Both the position numbers and the translations under genes were made by a program. Shown piece by piece: positions 4,092-19,334 of a stretch of 64,000 nucleotides of DNA (position 1 is the stretch's first letter; each line of letters starts with the position of its first letter). Below the pieces are notes generated by a model that did not search any database, was not told where the DNA came from, and saw nothing but the letters and a program-made list of their open reading frames with translations. Source of the DNA: Rhodococcus rhodochrous (lineage in GTDB: Bacteria; Actinomycetota; Actinomycetes; Mycobacteriales; Mycobacteriaceae); contig NZ_LT906450.1 of assembly GCF_900187265.1 (NCBI RefSeq), positions 1,727,444 through 1,791,443 of the forward strand, written 5' to 3'.

Positions 4092-4589
4092 ATGACCGTC
4101 ACCGAGGAATTCCTGAGGAACAACGAGACCTACGCGGCCGGCTTCTCCGGCCCGCTGCCGCTTCCACCCAGCAAACACATCGCGATCGTGGCGTGCATGG
4201 ACGCCCGGCTCGACGTGTACCGGGCGCTCGGCATCGAAGAGGGTCAGGCCCACGTGATCCGCAACGCCGGCGGCGCCGTGACCGACGACGTGATCCGCTC
4301 GCTCACGATCAGCCAGCGACTGCTCGGCACCACCGAGATCGTGCTGGTCCACCACACCGACTGCGGCATGCTGACCTTCACCGACGACGAGTTCACGCGC
4401 GCGGTGCAGGACGACACCGGTATCCGCCCGGCCTGGGCACCGGAGTCCTTCCGCGACCCGCACGAGGACGTGCGCCAATCGCTGCGCCGCATCGAGACCA
4501 GCCCGTTCGTCACGAAGACCACCTCGCTGCGCGGGTTCGTCTTCGACGTGGCCAGTGGCGAACTCGAGGAGACCGTGCCCGCCGCCTAG
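4092..4589 (+). CDS. canA: Beta-class carbonic anhydrase, Rv1284-like
   Basis: A 165-aa beta carbonic anhydrase interconverting CO2 and bicarbonate. The zinc site is complete: C35 (in CMDARLD, with D37 and R39), H88 and C91 (in HHTDCGM). Length and ligand numbering match M. tuberculosis Rv1284 closely. The frame is open further upstream, but the ATG at 4092 follows GGGGGACGAGG and starts where the family starts. Its stop is 1 nt from that of the convergent PIG-L gene. Confidence 0.93.
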   Translation: MTVTEEFLRNNETYAAGFSGPLPLPPSKHIAIVACMDARLDVYRALGIEEGQAHVIRNAGGAVTDDVIRSLTISQRLLGTTEIVLVHHTDCGMLTFTDDEFTRAVQDDTGIRPAWAPESFRDPHEDVRQSLRRIETSPFVTKTTSLRGFVFDVASGELEETVPAA

Positions 4590-4590
4590 C

Positions 4591-5373
4591 TCAGAGCGGG
4601 AGCTCGGTCTCCTGCAGCCCGGGCGGAAGGCCGCGGCGCCGGAACCACTCGACGCCGAAGGCGGCGCGCAGGTGTTCCTCGGGCATGTTCAGCATCGGCC
4701 CGAAGTCGCCGATCTGCGACTCGTAGCCGACCATCGCCGCACGTTTGGCACCCAGCGCCTCCGACACGTCCACCGCGGTGGTCAGTTCCGACTCCGGCAG
4801 GCCGAAGGTCCCGAGGTCCGGTGGGCGCACGTCGTCGGGGGTGTCCGGCAGCGCCGAGAGCAACCGCATCAGGTGGTCCCGGTTGCTCGACGCCTCGTAG
4901 ACGGCGTCGTGCCCGGTGATGCGTTCGGCATGGACCCCGGCCCGGTGGACCTGGACGTGATCGGGATGGCCGTACCCGCCGTGCGCGTCGTAGATCGTGA
5001 CGACATCGGCGCGTTCCTGCTCGATCACGGTGGCCAGTCTGGCTCCCACCTCGCTCGGATCGGCGTTGGCGAAGGCATTCGGGTCGTGGTTGCCGGCGGT
5101 GCCGGCCATCCCCGAATCGCCGTATCCGAAGGGCACCACCCTCGCCGCACCCAGCGCCCGGGCCGATTCCTCGAGTTCCTTCGTGCGGCGGGCGGCGAGG
5201 GATTCACCGGGCGCGAGCAGTCCGTCGGGATACTCGCCGCGGGCACCGTCGGTGGCGACGACGAGCACGACGCGATGCCCGGCGTCGGCGGCCCGGCGCA
5301 TCACGCCACCGGTGAGGAATACCTCGTCGTCGGGGTGTGCGTGGAAGCACAGCAGAACGCTCATGGCGTTCAT
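4591..5373 (-). CDS. PIG-L family N-acetyl-sugar deacetylase
   Basis: A 260-aa zinc-dependent deacetylase of the LmbE/PIG-L family. The motif HAHPDDE (H13, D16) and the later GGYGHPDH provide the metal ligands. In mycothiol-producing actinobacteria this family includes MshB (mycothiol synthesis) and Mca (conjugate amidase); nothing seen here assigns it to either, so only the family is given. Two ATGs, three codons apart, are possible starts, and neither has a strong ribosome site. Confidence 0.88.
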   Translation of the reverse strand: MNAMSVLLCFHAHPDDEVFLTGGVMRRAADAGHRVVLVVATDGARGEYPDGLLAPGESLAARRTKELEESARALGAARVVPFGYGDSGMAGTAGNHDPNAFANADPSEVGARLATVIEQERADVVTIYDAHGGYGHPDHVQVHRAGVHAERITGHDAVYEASSNRDHLMRLLSALPDTPDDVRPPDLGTFGLPESELTTAVDVSEALGAKRAAMVGYESQIGDFGPMLNMPEEHLRAAFGVEWFRRRGLPPGLQETELPL

Positions 5374-5402
5374 GCTGACACGCTGCCCGTCCGTTGCAGT
5401 GG

Positions 5403-7445
5403 TCAGTCCGACTCGCCGTAGCGGGCCGCGAGGTTCTCGGGCATCGGTTCGTGCCGCAGATACTGGCGGGCGAAATCGGCGGTGCCCTGCGTGATGGCCC
5501 GCAGTTCGACCGGATAGCGGCCGAGTTCGAGTTCGGGAACCTCCGCGCGCAGCAGGGCGACACCCGGCTCGGGGGATTCGGTGCCGAGCACCCGTCCGCG
5601 CCGGGCCGACAGATCACCGAGGACAGCGCCGAGATACTCCTCGGGCACGATCACCCGCACGGCGGCGACCGGTTCGAGTACGCGAACGGTGCTGTGCGCG
5701 GCCGCATCCCGCAGGGCCAGCCCGGCTGCGGCCTGGAAGGCCGCGTCGGACGAATCCACGGAGTGGGCCTTGCCGTCGACCAGGGTGACCTGCACGTCGA
5801 CGAGCGGATATCCCGTCGTCACACCCTTCTCGGCCTGCGCGTACACGCCCTTCTCCACGGACGGGATGAACTGGCGCGGAACCGCACCGCCCACCACCTT
5901 CTCGGCGAAGACGACTCCGCTGCCCACCGGCAGTGGTTCGACCTCGACGTCGACGACCGCGTACTGGCCGTGCCCGCCGGATTGTTTGACGAGCCTGCCG
6001 TGCCCTTTCGCGGGTCCGGCGAAGGTCTCCTTCAGCGGCACCCGATGCTCGACCGTGTCGACCTGGACACCGTGCCGGGTGCGCAACCGTTCGAGGACCA
6101 GTTCGGCGTGCGCCTCACCCGTGCACCACAGCACGAGCTGATGGGTCTCGGGATTCTGTTCGACGCGCAGCGCGGGATCCTCGGAGGCGAGGCGAGACAG
6201 GGCCTGCGACAGCTTGTCGTCGTCGGTGCGGGTGTGTGCCTCGATCGCGACGGGGAGCAGGGGAGTCGGGGTGGGCCACCGGTCGAGTGGGACCGGATGG
6301 TCGGGGTCGTACAGGACGTCGCCGGGTTGTGCGGTCGCGAGTTTCCCGACGGAGGCGATGTCTCCCGCCACGGCCTCGCCGACCGGGCGCTGTTGCTTGC
6401 CGAACGGGCTCGTCAGGGCGGGAATGCGTTCGCGGCTGTCGCGGTCGCCGTCGGCCAGTGCGACGATCGTGTCGGGTCGCAGCGTGCCGGAGTAGACGCG
6501 CACCAGGCTGATCCGCCCGACATAGGAGTCGCCGGCCACGCGCACGACCTGCGCGGCGAGCGGACCGTCCGGATCGCACGGTGGTGCCCCACGACCGCGG
6601 TGCGTCGGCGCCGGGAAACCGGTGGTGATCAACTCGAGGAGTTCGACGGCGCCGATCCCCGTCTCGTCGGCGGGGACGGCCGGGTGCAGGGTGCAGGCCA
6701 GGATCTCGCGGGTGAGCCCTTCCTGCAGGGAGGCCGTGTCGAGTTGCTCGCCGGCGATGAATCGCTCCATGAGCGTGTCGTCCTGGCCGGAGATGGCCTC
6801 CACGAGGCTCTCCCGCGCCTCGGTGGACACCGGGCACGGACCGGGTTCGCCGTAGCTGCGGCCCGTCAGCAGACCCATCGATCCGATCGGGCGGTCGCCG
6901 TCGTAGACGGGATAGAACATGGCCCGCAGGGTGTCCGGTCCCAATCCGAAGGCGTCGTGGCAGTCGGTGAGCATGTCGTCGAAGCTGTGCCGGGCGACGT
7001 CGAGTTTGTTCACCACGATCGCGCGGGGGATCGCCTCGTCGTCGCATTCGCGCCAGAGCGCGCGGGTCGCGGCACTGATGGGATCGGTGGCGGAGACGAC
7101 GAAGATCGCCGCGTCGGCGGCGTGCAGGCCCGCGCGGACCTCGGCGTCGAAGTCGGGATGTCCCGGCGTGTCGATCAGGTTGATCTTGATGTCGTTCCAT
7201 TCGAGGGGGACGACGGACAGCTGCACCGACCGGCGGTGGCGCTGCTCGATCTCCTCGTAATCGGACACCGTGGTGCCCTCGGCGACGCGCCCGGCGCGCC
7301 CGACGGCGCCCGCGGCGACGGCGAGGGATTCGGTGAGGGTGGTTTTCCCGGAGCCGCTGCACCCCACCAGGGCAACGTTGCGGATCCGGTCGGGACTGTC
7401 GGCGGTCGGTGCCTGCCGGCTGCGTGCTGCGGAGCGATCGGGCAT
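5403..7445 (-). CDS. fusA2: EF-G-like translational GTPase (EF-G2, FusA2 type)
   Basis: A 680-aa protein with the EF-G domain order but a divergent P-loop, GCSGSGKTTL, in place of the canonical GHVDHGKTT. The G3 motif DTPGHPDF and G4 motif NKLD are intact. This matches the second, EF-G-like family of mycobacteria (M. tuberculosis Rv0120c). Members may not support translocation like EF-G, and their role is unclear. The start at 7445 is preferred because GGGAG lies 8 nt upstream; the frame extends 10 codons further. Confidence 0.88.
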   Translation of the reverse strand: MPDRSAARSRQAPTADSPDRIRNVALVGCSGSGKTTLTESLAVAAGAVGRAGRVAEGTTVSDYEEIEQRHRRSVQLSVVPLEWNDIKINLIDTPGHPDFDAEVRAGLHAADAAIFVVSATDPISAATRALWRECDDEAIPRAIVVNKLDVARHSFDDMLTDCHDAFGLGPDTLRAMFYPVYDGDRPIGSMGLLTGRSYGEPGPCPVSTEARESLVEAISGQDDTLMERFIAGEQLDTASLQEGLTREILACTLHPAVPADETGIGAVELLELITTGFPAPTHRGRGAPPCDPDGPLAAQVVRVAGDSYVGRISLVRVYSGTLRPDTIVALADGDRDSRERIPALTSPFGKQQRPVGEAVAGDIASVGKLATAQPGDVLYDPDHPVPLDRWPTPTPLLPVAIEAHTRTDDDKLSQALSRLASEDPALRVEQNPETHQLVLWCTGEAHAELVLERLRTRHGVQVDTVEHRVPLKETFAGPAKGHGRLVKQSGGHGQYAVVDVEVEPLPVGSGVVFAEKVVGGAVPRQFIPSVEKGVYAQAEKGVTTGYPLVDVQVTLVDGKAHSVDSSDAAFQAAAGLALRDAAAHSTVRVLEPVAAVRVIVPEEYLGAVLGDLSARRGRVLGTESPEPGVALLRAEVPELELGRYPVELRAITQGTADFARQYLRHEPMPENLAARYGESD

Positions 7446-7522
7446 CGAGCTACTCCCTCGTGTGACCTGCAGCACAGTCTAGGGCATTCCGATCGTCCCT
7501 CCGGGGAGGTTCGCAACACGCG

Positions 7523-7595: not shown

Positions 7596-9359
7596 TCAGT
7601 ACACGTCGCGCACGTACCGCTTCTCGCGCTTGAGGGTGGTGACGTACTCGACGGCCTGCTCGTCGCTCATACCGCCGTGCTCGGCGACGATCTCGTGCAG
7701 CGCACGGTCGACGTCCTTGGCCATCCGCGACGCATCGCCGCAGATGTAGAAGTGTCCACCCTCCTCGAGCCACGCGAACAACTCCGCGCCGTGCTCCTTC
7801 ATGCGGGTCTGCACGTAGATCTTCTCGGCCTGATCGCGGGAGAACGCCAGGTCCAGGCGCGTGAGCACACCCGAGTCGACGAACTCCGTCAGCTCGTTCT
7901 CGTAGATGTAGTCGCAGCCGCGCTTCTGGTCGCCGAAGAACAGCCAGTTCTTCCCCGTCGCACCCCGTGCGCGACGCTCCTGCAGGAAGCCGCGGAAGGG
8001 TGCGATGCCGGTGCCCGGACCGACCATGATCATCGGTGCGGTGTCGTCGGCGGGCACGCGGAAGGCCTTGTTCTTCGACACGAAGATGCCCACCTTGCCT
8101 TCACCGACACGATCGGCGAGGAAGGTCGAGCACACCCCGCGACGCTCGCGGCCGTCGGTGCCGTAGCGCACCGCCGCGACCGTCAGGTGCACCGAACCGT
8201 CGCACGCGTTCGGGCTCGACGAGATCGAGTACGCCCGGTGCTGCAGCGGACGCAGCAGCGCCAGGAACTGCTCGGCCGACAGCTCGGGCGCGGGATCGAG
8301 CAGGAGCACGTCGAGAATGTCGCGGCCCCACAACCATTCGTCGAGCGCAGCCTTGTCGCCGTGCCGCAGCACATAGGTGAGTTCCTCGTTGCCCGTGTGC
8401 TTCTCGATCTCCTCGAGGAGATCGACGGACGGGGCGGTGATCTCGTAGTTGTAGGTGAGCAGGTGCTCGAGGGTGTCGTCGTGCCCCTCGGGGACGCTCG
8501 CGCCGTCGAGACCGAGCCGACCGAGGATCGCGTGCACGAGTTCGGTGTCGTTGACGGGCACCACGTTCAGCGCGTCGCCCGCTTCGTATTCCAGACCGGA
8601 ATCGGCGAGCGCGAACTCGTAGTGCCGGATCTCCTTCGCCGAGTCCTCCCCGGACAGCAGCACGTTCGACGTCAGCACCGCCGGATAGGGATTCTTGCGG
8701 GTCCACTGCGACTTCGCCCGGGCCGGTGCCGCCGGTGCCGCGGGAGCGGGAGCACCATCGCCCACGATGCCCTCGACGGCCGCGACGAGCGGCAGCGTCT
8801 CCGCGATCCACGTCGCGGCGAGCTCCTCGAACTCGACGTCACAGTCCACCCGCGGCACGATGCGCTGCGCACCGAGCTGCTCGAGACGCATGTCGATGAG
8901 CTTGCCGGCCTGGCAGAACCCGTCGTACCCCGTGTCACCGAGAGCGAGCACCGCGAAGTTCATGCCGTCGAGGCGCGGCGCGCTCTCGGCCGACAGCGCA
9001 TCCCAGAACAGCTCGGCGTTGTCGGGCATCTCGCCCTCGCCGTAGGTGGATGTGACGATCAGGACCTGGCCCAGACCGGCGAACCGGTCGAGGTCCATGT
9101 CGTCGAGAGCGCACACGACGGGCACGAAGCCCTGGGTGCGCGCCGCAGCCGCGGCGTCCTCGGCGACGGCTTCGGCATTGCCGGTCTGCGAGCCGTAGAG
9201 CACGTGCAGAGCAGGCGCCGAGCCGGCGGTCCCGGCATCGTCGGCGGGACCACCGGAGAACAGGCGGGTCTGCATCCCGGCGACGAAGCCGGAGAGCCAC
9301 GACCGCTGATCGGCGGTGAACGGAGCGTCGAGGGGAATGAACGGGCCGGTGGTGGTCAC
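7596..9359 (-). CDS. cysJ: CysJ-like NADPH diflavin reductase
   Basis: A 587-aa diflavin oxidoreductase. Residues about 50-190 form an FMN-binding flavodoxin domain (YGSQTGNAEAVAED, TSTYGEGEMPDN, ALGDTGYDGFCQAG); about 220-420 form the FAD domain (YSISSSPNACDGSVHLTV); the rest is the NADPH domain (VGPGTGIAPFRGF, YICGDASRMAKDVDRAL, C-terminal aromatic Tyr). It resembles the sulfite reductase flavoprotein, but no sulfite reductase haemoprotein is nearby. Its GTG start overlaps the gltB stop by 4 nt, so the two are translationally coupled. I infer that it passes electrons from NADPH to the glutamate synthase in place of GltD. Confidence 0.88.
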   Translation of the reverse strand: MTTTGPFIPLDAPFTADQRSWLSGFVAGMQTRLFSGGPADDAGTAGSAPALHVLYGSQTGNAEAVAEDAAAAARTQGFVPVVCALDDMDLDRFAGLGQVLIVTSTYGEGEMPDNAELFWDALSAESAPRLDGMNFAVLALGDTGYDGFCQAGKLIDMRLEQLGAQRIVPRVDCDVEFEELAATWIAETLPLVAAVEGIVGDGAPAPAAPAAPARAKSQWTRKNPYPAVLTSNVLLSGEDSAKEIRHYEFALADSGLEYEAGDALNVVPVNDTELVHAILGRLGLDGASVPEGHDDTLEHLLTYNYEITAPSVDLLEEIEKHTGNEELTYVLRHGDKAALDEWLWGRDILDVLLLDPAPELSAEQFLALLRPLQHRAYSISSSPNACDGSVHLTVAAVRYGTDGRERRGVCSTFLADRVGEGKVGIFVSKNKAFRVPADDTAPMIMVGPGTGIAPFRGFLQERRARGATGKNWLFFGDQKRGCDYIYENELTEFVDSGVLTRLDLAFSRDQAEKIYVQTRMKEHGAELFAWLEEGGHFYICGDASRMAKDVDRALHEIVAEHGGMSDEQAVEYVTTLKREKRYVRDVY

Positions 9360-12300
9360 GCGGAGACTCCCATCGTGGAGGTGAGGACGTTCGGGACGGC
9401 GTTGCGTGCGAACAGTTCCTCGTAACCGGGCAGGCGACCTGCGGCATCGAGATTCCTGCGGCTTTGCAGGACGATCCAGCCGTAGGTACCGGGCGCATCG
9501 ATCGAGCGGACGTTGCGCAGGGCCAGGGCCTGCTTGTAGTCGTTCAGGCGCTTGTCGGCGACCAGCGCCGCGAGCTGCTCGTCGGTGTGATCGGCGATCG
9601 CAGCGAGGGCGTAACGCTCGAGCTTCGCGACGAGGAAGAAGTCCTCGGTGAGCAGCAGATTGCGTGCGGCCTTCTGCACCGCCGGGTCCGACACGTCGGT
9701 GGCGCCGGGGACCTTCTGCAGCGCCATCTCCTGCGCGGCGGCAAGCACCGTGTAGTTGTTGAGCAGCGCGTACATGGCCTCGGTGTCGGTCGCGTCCGGG
9801 GTGACACCACCGGCGACGGGAACACCCGAGCGGCAGTTCTCCTTGAACTTGCGCACCTGGTGCGCGACCAGTGCCGTGGCGACCTCGGCAGCGAGGTCCT
9901 TGCGCGACGCTGCGGCGAGGATCTCGTCGAGGTCCTGGTACTGCAGCAGGGCGCGCGGCATGCCGTACGCGAACCGGTGCTGCTCGACCTGCCAGTTGTC
10001 GATCAGGAAGCGGGCCTTCACCGAGCCGGTGGCCTCGACGTGCAGGTGCAGCAGCTGCAGCACTGCAGCGTTGTGGATCGCGGCCTGCGGGTCGTCGCCG
10101 GTGATCGACCCGAGGACGATCGAGTCGGCGCTAGCCTTGCGGGGGAGCAGGCCCTCGGGGTCGTACTGGTAGACGAACCCGCCGGACATGCCGTTGCCGA
10201 AGCCCTTGCCGAACTCGCCGATGTTGAGCACCGCGCCGTTGGTCATGTACTCGCATGCGAACTCACCGACGCCCTCGACCACCGCGGTCGCACCGGAATT
10301 GCGCACCGCGAAACGGTCGCCGGCCTCGCCCTCGACGAACAGGCGACCACCCGTAGCGCCGAAGAGCGCGAAGTTGCCGATCAGGACGTTTCCGCCCCGC
10401 TCGTCGCTTCCGCCACCCGGGGAGCGCAGCACGATCTGCCCGCCGCACTGACCCTTGCCGACACCGTCGTTGGCGGTACCGGTGTGCTCGATGCGCATGC
10501 CGTCGTTGCAGAACGCCCCGAAGGACAGGCCCGCCGAACCGGAGGTGGTGAGGGTGACGGTGCCGTCGCGCAGCCACCGGCGTCCGCGCTCGTCGTCGAG
10601 CACGGCCGGCAGGGCGCCGAGATCCTCGTGGTTGAGCATGCGCTCGATGTCGATCGCCAGCTGCGCGCCGACGCTCTTGTTGTTGTTCGTCAGCTGCACG
10701 CCGTCCCCGAGCGAGACGGTGAGGTCCTTCGCATCGACGAGGGCCTCGCGCAGCCGGGCCACCCACGCCTCGTCGAGCGAGTAGTCCTTCTCCATGTAGA
10801 CCGGATTGTCGATGTGCACCTCGGGCAGCACCGCGAGCATCGCCCGCAGGTCCAGCCGGCCCACGCTCGACGGGTGGTCGAGCAGGTGCAGCAGGTCGGC
10901 GCGGCCACGCGCGTCGCGCAGCGACCGCAGACCCAGGCGGGCGAGCAACTCGCGGGTCTCGTGCGCGACGTTGAGCAGGTACTGGGCCATCGCCCGCGGA
11001 TCGCCGTTGAACACTTCGGGATTCGTGGTCAGACCTGCCGGGCACTTGACGTTGCAGTTCTTCGCCATGACGCAGCCGAGCATCATCAGCGCGGTGGTGC
11101 CGAACTCGAAGCTGTCGGCGCCGAGCAGCGCCGAGACGATGACGTCCGACGCCGTCTGGTGCGCACCCGAACACCGCAGCACGACCTTGTCGCGCAGACC
11201 GTTGGCGGTGAGGGCCTGATGGACCTCGGCCACACCGATCTCCGCGGACCGGCCCGCGTACTTCAGCGAGGTCACCGAGGCGGCGCCCGTGCCGCCGGTG
11301 TTGCCGGCGACGTTGATGACGTCGGCGCCCGCCTTGGCGACACCCACGGCGATCGTGCCGATGCCCTCGGAGGAGACGAGCTTGACGATCACCCGCACCC
11401 GCGCCGCCTTGGCGTCGTGGATGAGCTGGGCGAGGTCCTCGATGGAGTAGGTGTCGTGGTGCGGCGGCGGCGAGACCAGCTCGACGCCGGGGGTCGCGCC
11501 GCGCGCCGCGGCGATCTCCACGGTGACCTTCTTGGCGGGCAGCTGACCACCCTCGCCGGGCTTCGCGCCCTGCGCGATCTTGATCTCGATCTCCTCGAGC
11601 ATCGGATCGGCGAGGTAACCGGCCCACACACCGAAGCGGCCGGACGCGAACTGCTTGATGCGCGAGCCGCGGATGGTGCCGTAGCGGGAGATGTGCTCAC
11701 CGCCCTCACCGCAGTTCGACATGCCGCCGACCATGTTGGTGCCGTGCGCGACGGCCTCGTGGGCGTTCGAGTTGAGCGCGCCGTGGCTCATCGCACCCGA
11801 CGCGAGCGCCGGGGTGATCTCGTGCGCCGGCTGCACCCGGTCGAGTCGCACGCTCAGCGGGGCCTGGCGGACCTGCTCGAGATAGTGCGCGGCGTCACCG
11901 ATCGCGTGCACGGTCAGAGTGTCGCCGTAGCAACGGTGCGAGACGATGGCGTCACCGAAGCGCGCGACGAGCGAGGCCGCGAGCGCATCAGGACGACGGT
12001 GGTCGTCGGCGAGCGGACCGGTCAGACGCAGGACGAATTCGCTCTCACCCACCCGCGCCGCGGAGATCCCGCGCACGAGCATCGAGTTGTTGCCGAACCG
12101 CGCGAAGCGGCCCATCTCCTTGGTGAAGTCCTCGGCGGTGACGGCGTAGGTGACGTCGGCGGGCAGGGCGAGCACGTCGCGCAGCGCCGCGGGACGCTGT
12201 GTGCGCTCGTCGGCCATCGTGCGGGCGAACGCGCGGTAACCCGGGGTGATCTCGAAGGCATCGATCTCGGCGGGTGTCAGGGCGCGGAAGCCGCCGTAGC

Positions 12301-14851
12301 GGTACGACGCGTCGTCGAGACCGTGCGCGTCGGAGAGCCGGTGCAGCGGCAGCAGACGCAGCGCGTCGGTCAGATCCGGCTCGGCCTCCTTCTCGACGGG
12401 CAGCGTGAACGGCTCCTCGGTCATGTCCACGAAGCCGCGCACGGCGGTCGTGCCGAACGAGTGACCTGCGCCCTCGGCGCGCTCCTTGAACAGACCCAGC
12501 AGGGGGACGTCCTTCTCCGTCTCGACGCTGAGGGCCCGGCGATGCCAGTCGGCGACGGCCTGCGCGAGGGTGGTGAAACCGACACCGCCGACCGCGGACT
12601 TCACGTTCGGGAACCAGCGCGCGAGCACCTCGTCGCTCGTGTCGAGATAGCTCGGCTCGAAGAATTCACCACCGATGTACGACTCGACGGTGCACAGGCC
12701 GACGCGTCCCATCGTCTTCATGAGGGACTTCTCCGCAGCCTTGCGGAACTTCAGGAACGCGGCATCGGCGTCGTCGCCGTACTTCTCCTCGGCGCGCATC
12801 TGCACCGTGAGCGGATACACCGCGGCGGCACCGAAACCGAGGGTCGCGGCGATGTGGTGCGACGAGAACAGTTGTCCGGACTCGACGATAACGGACACGC
12901 GCAGACGCAGCCCCTCGTCGATCAGGCGCTGGTTGACCGCGGCGACGGTGAGCACCATCGGTAGTCCGGCACGGTCGGTGGAGACGTGGCGGTCGGTGAG
13001 CACGGCGATGCCACCGGATTCGCGGGCGAAGTCGGCAACGGCCTCGGCCGTACCGTCGATCGCGGCGGCGAGTGCGGCCGCGTTCGCCTTGGCGTCGTCG
13101 AAGACGGGGGAGTACAGCATCTCGAAACGCTGCACCGGGGTATCGGACTGCTCGCGGATACGCAGCATGTCGAGGTGCGTGAGGATCGGGGTGGGCACCA
13201 CGATCTGGGTCGCGGACGACGCGGGAGCACCGCTACCGGGTCGGGCGCCGAGCGCGACGCGCAGGGTCATGCCGTCCGCCTCGCGGATCGAGTCCAGCGA
13301 CGGGTTGGTGACCTGGGCGAAGCGCTGCGAGAAGTACTTGGCCACACCGCCTTCCTGATCCGACAGCGCATTGATCGCGTTGCCGTAACCCATCGCGGAG
13401 ATGCGCTCCTGACCCGACGCGAGCATCGGGTCGAGCATGAACCGGAAGGACTCCTGGTTGATGCTGTAGGACACGTAGCGCTGGTAGCGGCCGAGATCGC
13501 CGTTGTAGCGCAGCGGGGAACCGGCCTTCTCGGCGGGAACCTCGGGCAGGGCATCGAGTTCGCGACGGGCCTCGTCGACGAGCGATGCGTAATCCTGCTG
13601 GGCGGCAAGAAGTTCCAGTGCCTCGACGGTCCCGTAGGAGCGGCGCGTGCGGTGATCGAAGTACAGCATGCCGCCGGCCTCGATGCGGCCGCGACGCAGG
13701 ACGGTTTCGGGGGCGAAGTCGAACTGACCGGCTTCGGAGGTGACGGCGAGGTAGTTCTCGGTCTCCACGGTGCGCAGCGGGCGCAGGCCGAGGCGGTCGA
13801 GGCGCGCGCCGACGACGGTGCCGTTGCCGAAGATCAGCGCGGCGGGACCGTCGTTCTTCTCCTCGTACAGCGAGAAGAACTCGAGCATCGCGCGGACCTG
13901 CGGCGACAGTTCGATGTCGTTCTCCCAGGCCGGCGGCATCATCTGCACGACGGCGGTGACGAGGTCGAGGTCGTTGTGGGCGATGCGCGAGGCCAGGGTC
14001 TGGTCGAAGCGGCAGCTGTCGGACTGTCCCGGCGGGCGGATGATGTCGCGGCCCATCGCGCGGGCGAGGGCGCCCTCGAACAGCCGGTTCTTGCGATCGG
14101 TGTTGAGCTCGCCGTTGTGTGCCATGAGGCGGAACGGCTGCGCCATCGTCGGATGCGGATCGGTGTTCGTCGAGAACCGGGTGTGGAAGAACAGGGTGTG
14201 TACCGCGTGCCGCGGGTCGGTGAGATCGCGGAAGTACGGGATGACCTCGTGGGAGTTCAAGCGGTTCTTGAGAACCTGCGTGCGCGCACTGAGCGAGAGC
14301 GGGTACAACCCGGCCAGTTCCGGCTCGGTGTAGGCGCGGGCCTCGACCTCGAGGAGCACGCCGTGCAGCAGCCGGTCGAACTCGTCGACGGAGTCGCACG
14401 CGTCGGGCCGGGTGAAGATCCACTGGCGGATCGGCAACTGGTATTTCGGTGCGGTGGAACGCAACACGCTGTCGTCGACCGGGACGTCGCGCACCGCGAG
14501 CACGGTGACCCCGGCTCCGGCGAGTGCCGACGAGACGAGTTCCTCGGCGTCCGTATGTGCTGTGGGCTCGGTGGGGAGGAAGAAGTTTCCGACTCCGAAG
14601 TGCCCTTCCTGCAAGGGCATTCCGGTGATCTCGGAGAAAAATGCGACCGACAGGTCGACGTTGATGCCGGCTCCGTCGCCGACCCCCTCGGCGGACATGC
14701 CGCCCCGGTGCGGCACGACGCACAGGGCCTCGTGGCCGCGGGTGAGCACCTCGTGGGTCTGCACGCCGTCCTTGCGGGTGATGAAACCGACACCACAACT
14801 GCTCTTGTCCAGCGTGCTGTCGTACAGGCCGGTGTCACTGGCGTGCGTCAC
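9356..14851 (-). CDS. gltB: Glutamate synthase large subunit, long form
   Basis: GltB makes two glutamates from glutamine and 2-oxoglutarate. This protein is about 1831 aa, against roughly 1500 for classic GltB. The order is class II amidotransferase (nucleophile C19 in SSCGVGF, HNGELNT), central domain, FMN/synthase domain with a 3Fe-4S site at C1260, C1266 and C1270, GXGXG beta-helix domain to about residue 1567, then an extra C-terminal tail of about 260 residues. The GTG start at 14851 follows AGGAGG by 6 nt and leaves an 18-residue propeptide. The small subunit GltD is absent; the coupled downstream gene is a diflavin reductase. Confidence 0.92.
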   Translation of the reverse strand: MTHASDTGLYDSTLDKSSCGVGFITRKDGVQTHEVLTRGHEALCVVPHRGGMSAEGVGDGAGINVDLSVAFFSEITGMPLQEGHFGVGNFFLPTEPTAHTDAEELVSSALAGAGVTVLAVRDVPVDDSVLRSTAPKYQLPIRQWIFTRPDACDSVDEFDRLLHGVLLEVEARAYTEPELAGLYPLSLSARTQVLKNRLNSHEVIPYFRDLTDPRHAVHTLFFHTRFSTNTDPHPTMAQPFRLMAHNGELNTDRKNRLFEGALARAMGRDIIRPPGQSDSCRFDQTLASRIAHNDLDLVTAVVQMMPPAWENDIELSPQVRAMLEFFSLYEEKNDGPAALIFGNGTVVGARLDRLGLRPLRTVETENYLAVTSEAGQFDFAPETVLRRGRIEAGGMLYFDHRTRRSYGTVEALELLAAQQDYASLVDEARRELDALPEVPAEKAGSPLRYNGDLGRYQRYVSYSINQESFRFMLDPMLASGQERISAMGYGNAINALSDQEGGVAKYFSQRFAQVTNPSLDSIREADGMTLRVALGARPGSGAPASSATQIVVPTPILTHLDMLRIREQSDTPVQRFEMLYSPVFDDAKANAAALAAAIDGTAEAVADFARESGGIAVLTDRHVSTDRAGLPMVLTVAAVNQRLIDEGLRLRVSVIVESGQLFSSHHIAATLGFGAAAVYPLTVQMRAEEKYGDDADAAFLKFRKAAEKSLMKTMGRVGLCTVESYIGGEFFEPSYLDTSDEVLARWFPNVKSAVGGVGFTTLAQAVADWHRRALSVETEKDVPLLGLFKERAEGAGHSFGTTAVRGFVDMTEEPFTLPVEKEAEPDLTDALRLLPLHRLSDAHGLDDASYRYGGFRALTPAEIDAFEITPGYRAFARTMADERTQRPAALRDVLALPADVTYAVTAEDFTKEMGRFARFGNNSMLVRGISAARVGESEFVLRLTGPLADDHRRPDALAASLVARFGDAIVSHRCYGDTLTVHAIGDAAHYLEQVRQAPLSVRLDRVQPAHEITPALASGAMSHGALNSNAHEAVAHGTNMVGGMSNCGEGGEHISRYGTIRGSRIKQFASGRFGVWAGYLADPMLEEIEIKIAQGAKPGEGGQLPAKKVTVEIAAARGATPGVELVSPPPHHDTYSIEDLAQLIHDAKAARVRVIVKLVSSEGIGTIAVGVAKAGADVINVAGNTGGTGAASVTSLKYAGRSAEIGVAEVHQALTANGLRDKVVLRCSGAHQTASDVIVSALLGADSFEFGTTALMMLGCVMAKNCNVKCPAGLTTNPEVFNGDPRAMAQYLLNVAHETRELLARLGLRSLRDARGRADLLHLLDHPSSVGRLDLRAMLAVLPEVHIDNPVYMEKDYSLDEAWVARLREALVDAKDLTVSLGDGVQLTNNNKSVGAQLAIDIERMLNHEDLGALPAVLDDERGRRWLRDGTVTLTTSGSAGLSFGAFCNDGMRIEHTGTANDGVGKGQCGGQIVLRSPGGGSDERGGNVLIGNFALFGATGGRLFVEGEAGDRFAVRNSGATAVVEGVGEFACEYMTNGAVLNIGEFGKGFGNGMSGGFVYQYDPEGLLPRKASADSIVLGSITGDDPQAAIHNAAVLQLLHLHVEATGSVKARFLIDNWQVEQHRFAYGMPRALLQYQDLDEILAAASRKDLAAEVATALVAHQVRKFKENCRSGVPVAGGVTPDATDTEAMYALLNNYTVLAAAQEMALQKVPGATDVSDPAVQKAARNLLLTEDFFLVAKLERYALAAIADHTDEQLAALVADKRLNDYKQALALRNVRSIDAPGTYGWIVLQSRRNLDAAGRLPGYEELFARNAVPNVLTSTMGVSA

Positions 14852-15174
14852 GGACGTCCTCCTCGGTGCATCGAAGTCGTCGTCGACCGGCAGTGACGAT
14901 GCGAAGAAGGGGGAACGCGTGGGAAGGCGCAGCTCCTGATGTGCATAGACGTGTGCCGGAGACGATATGTGTGAATGCAGACGTCTTTGTCCGAATGCGC
15001 CGTGCGTTGCGACGGTGGAGCGAGCAGCAATGGCCAGTGTAGCGCACGTGTTAACTCCGGTGACGGCGGGATACATCACAACCCACCGGGCGTAAACGCT
15101 GTATTGCGGGAGGGTCTTCGCTACGCTCGCGCCCAACGGCGTCGACAGGCCGGACCATGAGCAGGGAGAGCGAT
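14852..15174. other. Intergenic region between gltB and aldehyde dehydrogenase
   Basis: This 323-bp gap separates two divergent genes and must hold both promoters. AGGAGG for gltB is at 14858-14863 and AGGGAGA for the dehydrogenase is just before 15175. I see a short palindrome AGACGTCT near 14980 but no convincing promoter hexamers, and no recognisable GlnR or AmtR site. Confidence 0.5.
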
Positions 15175-16599
15175 ATGACCGACATTCTCGACCGCACGAA
15201 GATCTACTTCGACGGGCAGTGGGTGGACTCCGACGGCGCCGGCCGCATCGAGGTCGTGAACCCGACGACCGAAGAGGTCATCGCGGTGGTCGCCGAGGGT
15301 GTCGCCTCCGATGTCGATCGGGCCGTCGCCGCGGCGAAGGCCGCCTTCCCGGCCTGGTCCGCGCTCAGTGGTACGTCACGCGCCGCCTACCTGGAGAAGG
15401 TCTCCTCGCTGGCGAACGAGCGTGCCGACGAGCTCACGAGCGTCGTCTCCCAGGACATGGGGATGCCCGCCCACTTCGCGCGTGCCATCCAGGTCGGGAT
15501 GCCGCTGAAGAACATCGCCGCCTATGCGTCGCTGGCAGGAACGTACGACTTCGACGACCAGGAGATCGGCAACGCCCTGGTCGTACGCGAACCCATCGGT
15601 GTCGTCGGCGCGATCACCCCGTGGAACTACCCGCTGCACCAGGTGGTGCTCAAGGTGTTCGCCGCGCTCGCCGCCGGATGCACCGTGGTGCTCAAACCCA
15701 CCGAGGTCGCGCCGCTGGTGACCTACGCGCTCGTCGACATCGTCGACGAGGCCGGCCTGCCGCCGGGCGTGTTCAACCTCGTCAGCGGCTACGGACCGGT
15801 CGTCGGCGAGGCCATCGCCGCACACCCCGACGTCGACATGGTGTCGTTCACCGGTTCGACGCGCGCCGGCAAGCGCGTCTCGGTCGTCGCCTCGGAGACG
15901 GTGAAGAAGGTCGCGCTCGAACTCGGTGGCAAGTCGGCCAACATCATCCTCGACGACGCCGACCTCACCGCCGCCGTCACCGAGGGTGTCGGCAAGTGCT
16001 TCCTCAACTCCGGCCAGACCTGCACCGCCCTGACCCGCATGCTCGTCCCCGCCGACCGTCTGCCGGAAGCCACCGCCATCGCCGAGCAGGTCGCGCGGGC
16101 CTACACCGTCGGGCTGCCCGACGATCCGTCGTCGAAGCTCGGTCCGCTCGTCAGCGGCACGCAGCAGGGGCGCGTGAAGGCGTACATCGACAAGGGTGTC
16201 GAGGAGGGCGCCGAACTGGTGCTCGACGGCCGCGAAACCGAGTTCACCACCGGCTACTTCGTCGGCCCCACCGTGTTCACGAACGTCGCACCGGAGATGA
16301 CGATCGCCCGCGAGGAGATCTTCGGACCGGTGCTGTCGATCATCGGATACCAGGACGAGGACGACGCGGTGCGCATCGCCAACGACAGCGAGTACGGCCT
16401 GTCCGGCGGGGTCTGGTCGGCCGACCCGGCGCGAGCGGAGGCCGTGGCCCGCCGTATGCGCACCGGTCAGGTCTACATCAACGGCGGCGCCTTCAACACC
16501 GACGCACCCTTCGGCGGTTACAAGCAGTCGGGTATCGGACGCGAGGCCGGCGTCTTCGGGCTCGAGGAGTTCCTGGAGATCAAGACGATCCTGCGCTGA
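15175..16599 (+). CDS. NAD(P)-dependent aldehyde dehydrogenase
   Basis: A 474-aa aldehyde dehydrogenase that oxidises an aldehyde to its acid. Visible motifs are the coenzyme loop [18 protein letters not shown], the general-base Glu in LELGGKSAN, and the catalytic Cys in NSGQTC, followed by EEIFGPV. An ATG at 15157 is also in frame, but 15175 is preferred because AGGGAGA lies about 8 nt before it. Substrate is unknown. The stop codon context is duplicated in a tandem repeat immediately downstream. Confidence 0.92.
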
Positions 16600-16735
16600 C
16601 GGCGGTGCCGTCCAATTCTGCGCTGACGGCGGTGCCGTCCAATTCTGCGCTGACGGCGGTGCCGTCCAATTCTGCGCTGACGGCGGTGCCGTCCAATTCT
16701 GCGCTGACGGCGGTGCCGTCCAATTCTGCGCTGAC
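16591..16735. repeat. Tandem array: five 27-bp repeats at a gene end
   Basis: Five identical 27-bp units occupy 16601-16627, 16628-16654, 16655-16681, 16682-16708 and 16709-16735. They are preceded by a 10-bp partial unit (CTGCGCTGAC, 16591-16600) that is the last codons and stop of the aldehyde dehydrogenase. Each unit contains the stem GACGGC-GGT-GCCGTC followed by CAATTCT, so the array can fold as serial small hairpins. The length is a multiple of three, so frames stay open across it. There are no spacers, so it is not a CRISPR. Confidence 0.97.
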
Positions 16736-16746
16736 GGATGAGTGCG

Positions 16747-18368: not shown

Positions 18369-19334
18369 ATGCGACGACCTGTTGTCCCGTGGGGTGGGCG
18401 CGGCACGGAGGCTGCGACTTCCAGGGCCGAACCGACGTCCGACACCGAACCGACGTCCGACACCGAATCGACGTCCGGCACCGAACCGCCGAGCGAATGG
18501 CAGCACGGCACGCGCAATCTGCACGTGTACGCAGCGGCCGGCGCGGCGGTGCTCGTGGCGGTGTTCGCCGCGGCCCGCGGAGCGGGCGCGTGGAGCACCG
18601 AGTCGGTGGGTGCCGACCGCTTCTATTCGATCCTGGCGTTGTTGATGCTGCTGACGGCGGCCTTCGGTGCCACCTTCTGGTGGCCTGCCGGATCCGGGGG
18701 TCGGCGACCGTCGCCGTCGCCTCCGAGCCGCACACCGCGGGTCCGGTACGTCGAGACGGCCGGTCGCGGCGGTACCGAGATCGGGGGCCGCCGTCCCGTC
18801 TTCGGTCTGCTGCTCGCGATGGTCCTGTGCGGGACGTTCCTCTCGCTCGGTGCTGCCGTGGAGATCGTGGTCGGGAACGAGGGGCTACCCCTCGTGGCGC
18901 TGGTGCTGGCGCTCGTCGCCGCGGTGTGCCTGACCTTCCTCGTGGAGGTGGCACTCGGGCGCATCCGGGCCGGTTCGCTGGTTCTCGGGCCGGACGGGAT
19001 CAGGCTGCGCGGCTGGTTCGTGGAGTCCTATCTGCCGTGGGTCTCGGTGCGGGGCCTCCGTGCGGTCGACCGGGGGTTCCCGGAGATCTGGATCGAGGGG
19101 CACGGGTCGGCGGCGTGGGCGCGTCGGCGCACGGGTCGGGTGTTCCCGTTCGGGCGCCTGCCGTCCGAGCCCCGGATCGAGGTGGACTCACGGCATCTGG
19201 CCGTCGATCCGGTGCAGTTGTACCGCTTCCTCGAGTTCTATGTGGAGCACCCTCGGCACCGCCGTGAACTGGGAACACCGGCGGCTGCGGAGCGTCTCGC
19301 GGAGGGGCCACCGTTCGACGCCGGCGACGAGTGA
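18369..19334 (+). CDS. Four-TM membrane protein with C-terminal cytoplasmic domain
   Basis: A 321-aa protein I do not recognise by name. The N-terminus carries a Thr/Ser/Glu repeat (TSDTEP-like, about residues 23-40) encoded by three 18-bp repeats. Four hydrophobic segments follow (about 50-72, 80-103, 137-160, 168-190). The last 120 residues are soluble and resemble a small beta-rich domain of the PH type seen in actinobacterial membrane proteins. GGGAGGGGAG precedes the ATG. Function unknown. Confidence 0.75.
   Translation: MRRPVVPWGGRGTEAATSRAEPTSDTEPTSDTESTSGTEPPSEWQHGTRNLHVYAAAGAAVLVAVFAAARGAGAWSTESVGADRFYSILALLMLLTAAFGATFWWPAGSGGRRPSPSPPSRTPRVRYVETAGRGGTEIGGRRPVFGLLLAMVLCGTFLSLGAAVEIVVGNEGLPLVALVLALVAAVCLTFLVEVALGRIRAGSLVLGPDGIRLRGWFVESYLPWVSVRGLRAVDRGFPEIWIEGHGSAAWARRRTGRVFPFGRLPSEPRIEVDSRHLAVDPVQLYRFLEFYVEHPRHRRELGTPAAAERLAEGPPFDAGDE
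18432..18485. repeat. Three 18-bp in-frame tandem repeats
   Basis: Units at 18432-18449 and 18450-18467 are identical (CCGACGTCCGACACCGAA); the third, 18468-18485, differs at two positions. They encode a six-residue TSDTEP-type repeat in the disordered N-terminus of the membrane protein, so changes in copy number would keep the frame. Confidence 0.95.

Follow-up and report, generated by a model that had tools for sequence, protein, structure and literature searches.

A divergent glutamate synthase paired with a CysJ-like diflavin reductase: a candidate iron-sparing GOGAT

Results

The window, that is, the whole stretch of 64,000 nucleotides of Rhodococcus rhodochrous DNA analysed here, carries on its minus strand a gene for a divergent large subunit of glutamate synthase (gltB2) followed by that of a CysJ-like NADPH diflavin reductase (Table 1). 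The original prediction had placed such a reductase beside gltB, with a 4-nt overlap between the gltB stop and the reductase GTG and with neither GltD nor a sulfite reductase haemoprotein adjacent. These points were confirmed. The TGA of gltB2 lies at 9358-9356 and the diflavin GTG at 9359-9357, a 4-nt overlap (GTGA); overlaps of this kind are present in many relatives too. The pair is flanked by an EF-G2-like gene (5403-7475, minus strand) and an aldehyde dehydrogenase gene (15157-16599, plus strand), and neither gltD nor cysI adjoins it in the window. All Pfam domains of both proteins score above cut-off: GATase_2, Glu_syn_central, Glu_synthase and GXGXG, in the order found in GltB, and Flavodoxin_1, FAD_binding_1 and NAD_binding_1 in the diflavin protein. 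Since the GAGGAGG at 14864-14858 is invariant in 10 Rhodococcus upstreams, the GTG at 14851 is supported as the start of gltB2. A perfect tandem array (16591-16737; 27-base unit, 5.4 copies, 100% matches) lies where the aldehyde dehydrogenase gene ends, and another short array is found at 18427-18488 (18-base unit, 3.4 copies).

Table 1. Features of the gltB2-diflavin locus (window coordinates)
Feature	Position	Strand	Basis
gltB2, large subunit of glutamate synthase, divergent type	9356..14851	-	1831 aa from GTG 14851; four Pfam domains; own clade, support 100
CysJ-like NADPH diflavin reductase (flavodoxin-FAD-NADPH domains)	7596..9359	-	587 aa; Pfam
GTGA overlap, gltB2 stop / diflavin start	9356..9359	-	Sequence
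Ribosome-binding-like GAGGAGG 5' of gltB2	14858..14864	-	Invariant in alignment of 10 Rhodococcus upstreams
Cys19, N-terminal nucleophile of glutaminase domain (role by homology)	14795..14797	-	CGVGF in 74/74 full-length relatives
Cluster motif C1260-x5-C1266-x3-C1270	11042..11074	-	74/74 relatives; canonical GltB has one residue more
Insert between central and FMN domains, residues 901-997	11861..12151	-	Alignment with 13 canonical GltBs; absent in L056 and L057
C-terminal extension, about residues 1633-1831 (candidate docking part)	9359..9955	-	Alignment with canonical GltBs

The N-terminal Cys and synthase-site motifs are retained in 70 to 74 of 74 GltB2s, and 236 of the 354 columns invariant in canonical GltBs are invariant and identical in GltB2, while 36 hold another fixed residue, several of them beside the cluster. 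The cluster motif itself reads CVMAKNCN[IV]KCP (C-x5-C-x3-C) in all 74 full-length GltB2s, against C-x5-C-x4-C in the 13 canonical GltBs compared. The largest stretches found only in GltB2 span residues 831-871, 901-997 and 1633-1795, and the C-terminal extension has no Pfam match above cut-off. Adaptation to a diflavin donor is the likely reason for the shortened cluster loop and for the C-terminal extension. With NF008730 (cut-off 1047 bits), the window GltB2 scores 1040.4 and that of P. agglomerans 1051.4, E. coli GltB reaching 2931.5. In a tree of 30 GltB2s and 13 canonical GltBs, GltB2 stands apart from the canonical type with support 100; this tree includes no ferredoxin-dependent glutamate synthase (Fd-GltS), and a long-branch warning applies to it. 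The one Fd-GltS compared (1llw) has some 20 extra residues between GEGGE and IKQ, known as the 'Fd loop', which are missing in GltB2; here GltB2 is 5 residues shorter than the NADPH type. The reading of GltB2 as an Fd-GltS was dropped on the comparison with that one enzyme. Met487 of the window protein aligns with Met479 of A. brasilense and is invariant in 8 of 8 aligned sequences; Met479 is placed between the cluster and FMN in the consulted part of a 2021 review (PMC8097209).

The window diflavin obtained 607.9 bits with the cysJ profile TIGR01931, below its cut-off of 668, and 476.6 bits with NF004859 ('sulfite reductase subunit alpha'), above its cut-off of 432. Together with four of four relatives it falls below the cut-offs of both TIGR01931 and NF008197, and two of two true CysJ from Pantoea/Erwinia, which adjoin CysI, lie far above them; the NF004859 cut-off is exceeded by the window protein, the four relatives and also true CysJ. 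Of 80 diflavins, 77 to 80 carry the FMN, FAD and NADPH motifs; the frameshifted L107 and the cut-off L124 account for two of the misses. The closest solved structures are sulfite reductase (SiR) flavoproteins. GltB2-linked diflavins form one group apart from CysJ and from nitrate-reductase fusions, with support 92/71, short of full support, in a tree from which one short row and two long branches were left out. The distance matrices of GltB2 and diflavin correlate with r=0.918 (n=74, near-copies included), the best of 500 shuffles giving 0.09.

A search of 84,980 species genomes with the C-terminal stretch of GltB2 (9359-10075) as the query confirmed 263 relatives, of which the best 80, from named genomes, were retained. 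A diflavin gene directly follows gltB2 on the same strand in 80/80 of these best loci, so the conserved pairing that was to be checked does exist. In 68 of the 80, a possible diflavin start codon lies at -10 to +60 of the gltB2 stop. No fused GltB2-diflavin protein was found among the 80, a stop codon ending gltB2 first where the frame was followed. These best 80 of 263 loci belong to Actinomycetota and to alpha-, beta- and gammaproteobacteria, among them Rhodococcus (the nearest named relatives), Nocardia, Mycolicibacterium, Mycobacteroides, Agrobacterium, Rhizobium, Shinella, Hyphomicrobium, Labrenzia, Methylobacillus, Corticibacter, Pantoea and Erwinia. Within the order, 60 of 298 genomes gave diflavin matches at 1e-60; open-frame length points to nitrate-reductase fusions for many of these (that of the window genome was checked). 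The 7 best matches from other genomes of the order, 51-83% identical (tblastn), all stand behind GltB2. Since these 7 and all 80 loci are paired, the pairing is not a matter of chance. The eighth-best match of the order (L059 in G160, about 6136-7491) is a diflavin of the GltB2-linked type, broken or truncated, with no GltB2 nearby. Full-length matches to the extension occur in only 3 of 396 genomes of a phylum sample, the window's included, plus one fragment; the type is therefore scattered. Nine plasmid records carry the GltB2 extension, and in the four opened (4/4) it is paired with a diflavin, the first gene being annotated as 'glutamate synthase-related protein' or gltB and the second as 'sulfite reductase (flavoprotein) subunit alpha' or cysJ. 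In Corticibacter (L225), a canonical gltB and a gltB2-diflavin pair lie less than 18 kb apart; its GltB2 is the nearest to the Erwiniaceae type among the tree rows.

The window genome (5.27 Mb, one contig) also holds a canonical gltB (1613-aa open frame; NF008730, 1689 bits) with an adjoining GltD of 750 bits at 85-89 kb, the gltD itself at 87623-89032. No protein above the CysI cut-off was found in it. The NIR_SIR proteins found were NirB and a 594-aa protein closest to ferredoxin-nitrite reductase and far below the CysI cut-off, and, apart from the window diflavin, FAD_binding_1 matched only a 1377-aa protein that has molybdopterin domains. The original prediction had named a separate gltD serving this GltB, or a cysI partner for the flavoprotein, as findings that would count against it. 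The GltD found stands beside its own canonical gltB and the NIR_SIR proteins are NirB and one nitrite-reductase-like protein, so neither an unpaired GltD nor a CysI was found. Because a canonical GltBD is present, the window's own pair may be dispensable.

In Pantoea and Erwinia, each of the 10 genomes has GltB2 as its sole large GOGAT (in 4 also by central domain); profile search recognised no canonical GltB in any of the ten, some of which are drafts. A small protein with the FMN domain, some 450 aa long, is additionally present in two of them. The GltD-family profile TIGR01318 at 1e-40 had no match in 8 of the 10, and in the remaining two, both Pantoea, it matched AegA, above the AegA equivalog cut-off; no standalone GltD was thus recognised by profile in any of the ten, drafts included. 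Run on 25 other genomes, the same search had a GltD-like match in every one. A GDH-family search at 1e-20 found no match in 4 of the 10, one of these being a MAG and one a Candidatus. Each of the ten genomes has exactly two diflavins, and the second one of P. agglomerans and E. persicina is a true CysJ by NCBIfam cut-offs, beside a CysI that likewise exceeds its cut-off, and away from the pair. The gene order in these two species is arcB, gltB2, diflavin, sspB, sspA, rpsI, rplM, zapE, and in E. coli it is arcB, yhcC, gltB, gltD, nan genes, sspB, sspA. As the arcB-sspB order is common to both, the pair occupies the place of gltBD in the two genomes opened. In a sample of the family, 191 of 295 genomes had a central-domain match, and six had a single match in the GltB2 score range, among them P. 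agglomerans, the one opened.

According to the part of PMC12364357 available to us, which cites Hara 2012, a P. ananatis gltB knockout is a Glu auxotroph; the same part states that P. ananatis is without a close homologue of E. coli GOGAT and that its gltB product shares 64% identity with one from Agrobacterium. In our comparisons, 9 of the 10 Pantoea/Erwinia GltB2s are 68.3-68.8% identical to one Agrobacterium GltB2, and two canonical enterobacterial GltBs are 45% identical to the Agrobacterium canonical GltB. On these identities, the published P. ananatis gltB is very probably a GltB2.

The 350 bases upstream of gltB2 at 35 actinobacterial loci were scanned on both strands with a degenerate 19-letter IdeR/DtxR consensus (iron box). 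At least 15 of 19 letters were matched in 18 of the 35 upstreams, against 1 of 1488 control windows of 350 bases from the same sources (both strands); the 35 loci are related to each other, and L052 and L068, both boxless, are probably one genome twice. Four more upstreams score 14, three of them from the R. jostii group. None of 5 canonical gltB upstreams (500 bases) reached 15, the highest being 13. With a stricter consensus, at least 14 letters were matched in 10 of 35 upstreams versus 0 of 884 control windows, the controls being read on one strand and the upstreams on both. The window upstream has no iron box (11/19, the background level), nor have its close Rhodococcus relatives (10-13). 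Upstream of proteobacterial gltB2, a scan for Fur-like and Irr-like sites with consensus words gave nothing clear.

Of 92 loci, 19 have a HemS/ChuX-like gene behind the diflavin and in the same orientation, and at 8 of them the two genes overlap; some of these calls are weak tblastn matches, and the Ketogulonicigenium one is also without a Pfam hit. No HemS match was obtained in the other 73, and there is no HemS gene at the window locus or at its close Rhodococcus relatives. HemS was the most frequent family (3 members) among the 58 of 78 neighbouring ORFs that were scanned. At the 35 actinobacterial loci, box and HemS occur together in 15, the box only in 3, HemS only in 0 and neither in 17 (Fisher p 3e-7, which ignores kinship). 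Other neighbours fit this iron signature: a free flavodoxin gene directly behind the diflavin at five Rhodococcus loci (L073, 8542-8991; L072 and L074-L076), a TonB receptor upstream of the Methylobacillus pair and siderophore uptake genes near the Ketogulonicigenium pair. At L057 (G074), a HemS/ChuX gene and a second FAD/NADPH reductase, without flavodoxin, lie behind gltB2-diflavin on the same strand (4231-6433).

Discussion

GOGAT is a central enzyme of ammonia assimilation. We think it very probable, from homology, gene order and the published mutant, that gltB2 and its diflavin neighbour together specify an NADPH-dependent glutamate synthase of two proteins, which makes no use of GltD, and thus a further type of NADPH-GOGAT. 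The route put forward in the original prediction, from NADPH through FAD and FMN to the cluster and FMN of GltB, remains the best explanation after an unpaired gltD and a cysI partner were sought and neither was found. The pairing it described stands; the normal GltBD of the genome, the wide spread and the iron signature of relatives were not part of it. By homology to GltB, GltB2 would hydrolyse glutamine, channel the ammonia to 2-oxoglutarate and reduce the resulting iminoglutarate on FMN. The diflavin would take a hydride from NADPH onto its FAD, and single electrons would then pass from the FMN of the flavodoxin domain to the 3-cysteine cluster of GltB2 and on to its FMN, in a predicted complex of both proteins. 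The Pantoea and Erwinia genomes, with GltB2 alone, support such a diflavin-fed enzyme; there, the pair appears to have replaced GltBD.

GltBD carries one [3Fe-4S] and two [4Fe-4S] clusters, as given in the consulted part of PMC8097209. A diflavin in place of GltD would leave 3 of these 11 irons, hence an iron-sparing reading. In many Mycobacteriales the pair probably serves under iron shortage, because it would need one cluster (3 Fe) instead of three (11 Fe). The IdeR-like boxes and the HemS-like downstream genes suggest that GltB2-diflavin is an iron-sparing GOGAT. We lean, by a small degree, to the full picture: a diflavin that replaces GltD and spares two [4Fe-4S] clusters, an IdeR box in many Mycobacteriales, an operon with a heme-degrading HemS-like protein, horizontal spread, and, in Pantoea and Erwinia, a position at the former gltBD site with no other GOGAT present. 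In some operons the diflavin could also serve HemS.

Could GltB2 instead be fed in trans by GltD, ferredoxin or flavodoxin, with the diflavin a mere neighbour doing its own job? The window genome does contain a GltD, five Rhodococcus loci have a free flavodoxin gene behind the diflavin and two Pantoea genomes have the GltD-like AegA. However, such feeding appears quite improbable in view of the unbroken pairing in the best 80 of 263 loci (80/80), the strong co-divergence of GltB2 and diflavin, the lack in GltB2 of the extra stretch of the one Fd-GltS compared, and the Pantoea/Erwinia genomes, where TIGR01318 at 1e-40 is unmatched in 8 of 10 and finds only AegA in the other two. Service by the genome's own GltD was rejected, as that protein adjoins its own gltB and Pantoea/Erwinia are without a recognised standalone GltD. 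Another view, that the diflavin is simply the CysJ of a sulfite reductase and stands beside gltB2 by accident, would agree with its closest solved relatives, with the NF004859 score and with the names in plasmid records. It is hardly credible, since the protein stays below TIGR01931 and NF008197, unlike two of two true CysJ adjoining CysI, belongs to a separate tree group (92/71) and comes from a genome in which no protein above the CysI cut-off was found. An accidental position was rejected on the 80/80 pairing (best 80 of 263) together with true CysJ-CysI elsewhere in the two opened genomes.

The pair might also make an amino compound other than glutamate, or the main client of the diflavin might be heme degradation by HemS. 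The 36 type-specific residue switches relative to canonical GltB and the HemS-like gene downstream in 19 of 92 loci speak for this. We consider it very improbable, because 236 of 354 canonical invariant columns are unchanged, 73 of 92 loci have no HemS match, no other large GltB accompanies GltB2 in any of the 10 Pantoea/Erwinia genomes, and loss of gltB in the published mutant causes Glu auxotrophy according to the consulted part of PMC12364357.

The diflavin-fed enzyme proposed here resembles the GltB-GltD of A. brasilense and E. coli in its large-subunit domains, N-terminal Cys, three cluster cysteines, 2-OG/FMN core motifs and, as predicted, NADPH as source. It differs from them in the lack of GltD, a cluster loop one residue shorter, the extra insert and the C-terminal extension, and in that its presumed donor is a diflavin reductase without iron-sulfur clusters, whereas GltD carries two [4Fe-4S]. 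With the Fd-GltS of Synechocystis (1llw/1ofd) it shares a large subunit unbound to GltD and a predicted donor with a small one-electron carrier domain; however, GltB2 is without the GEGGE-IKQ extra stretch and the carrier forms one protein with its NADPH reductase. As in the NADPH sulfite reductase CysJ-CysI, a flavodoxin-FAD-NADPH protein is expected to pass single electrons to an Fe-S enzyme, but here the client would be a glutamate synthase, and the diflavin falls in its own group and below two cysJ equivalog cut-offs, though above NF004859. In the actinobacterial nitrate reductase-diflavin fusions (window genome, 5.26 Mb), a CysJ-like module has likewise been recruited to another Fe-S enzyme, in that case fused to a molybdoenzyme and on a separate tree branch.

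The consulted part of the 2021 review (PMC8097209) describes GltD, ferredoxin and fused eukaryotic GOGAT forms, and the word diflavin is absent from it; our literature search found no paper on a GltB2-diflavin pairing. A diflavin-fed GOGAT would put right the present annotation of the two genes as 'glutamate synthase-related protein' and 'sulfite reductase subunit alpha', would explain glutamate synthesis without GltD in Pantoea and Erwinia, and would matter for glutamate-producing P. ananatis. It would also show a core pathway rebuilt toward a lower iron need, the pair of many soil and plant bacteria probably being a less iron-demanding version of a central enzyme.

Standalone diflavins of the genus g2 (L233, L234 and L235) are the nearest neighbours of the GltB2-linked group; they are without the N-terminal segment and have no evident partner.
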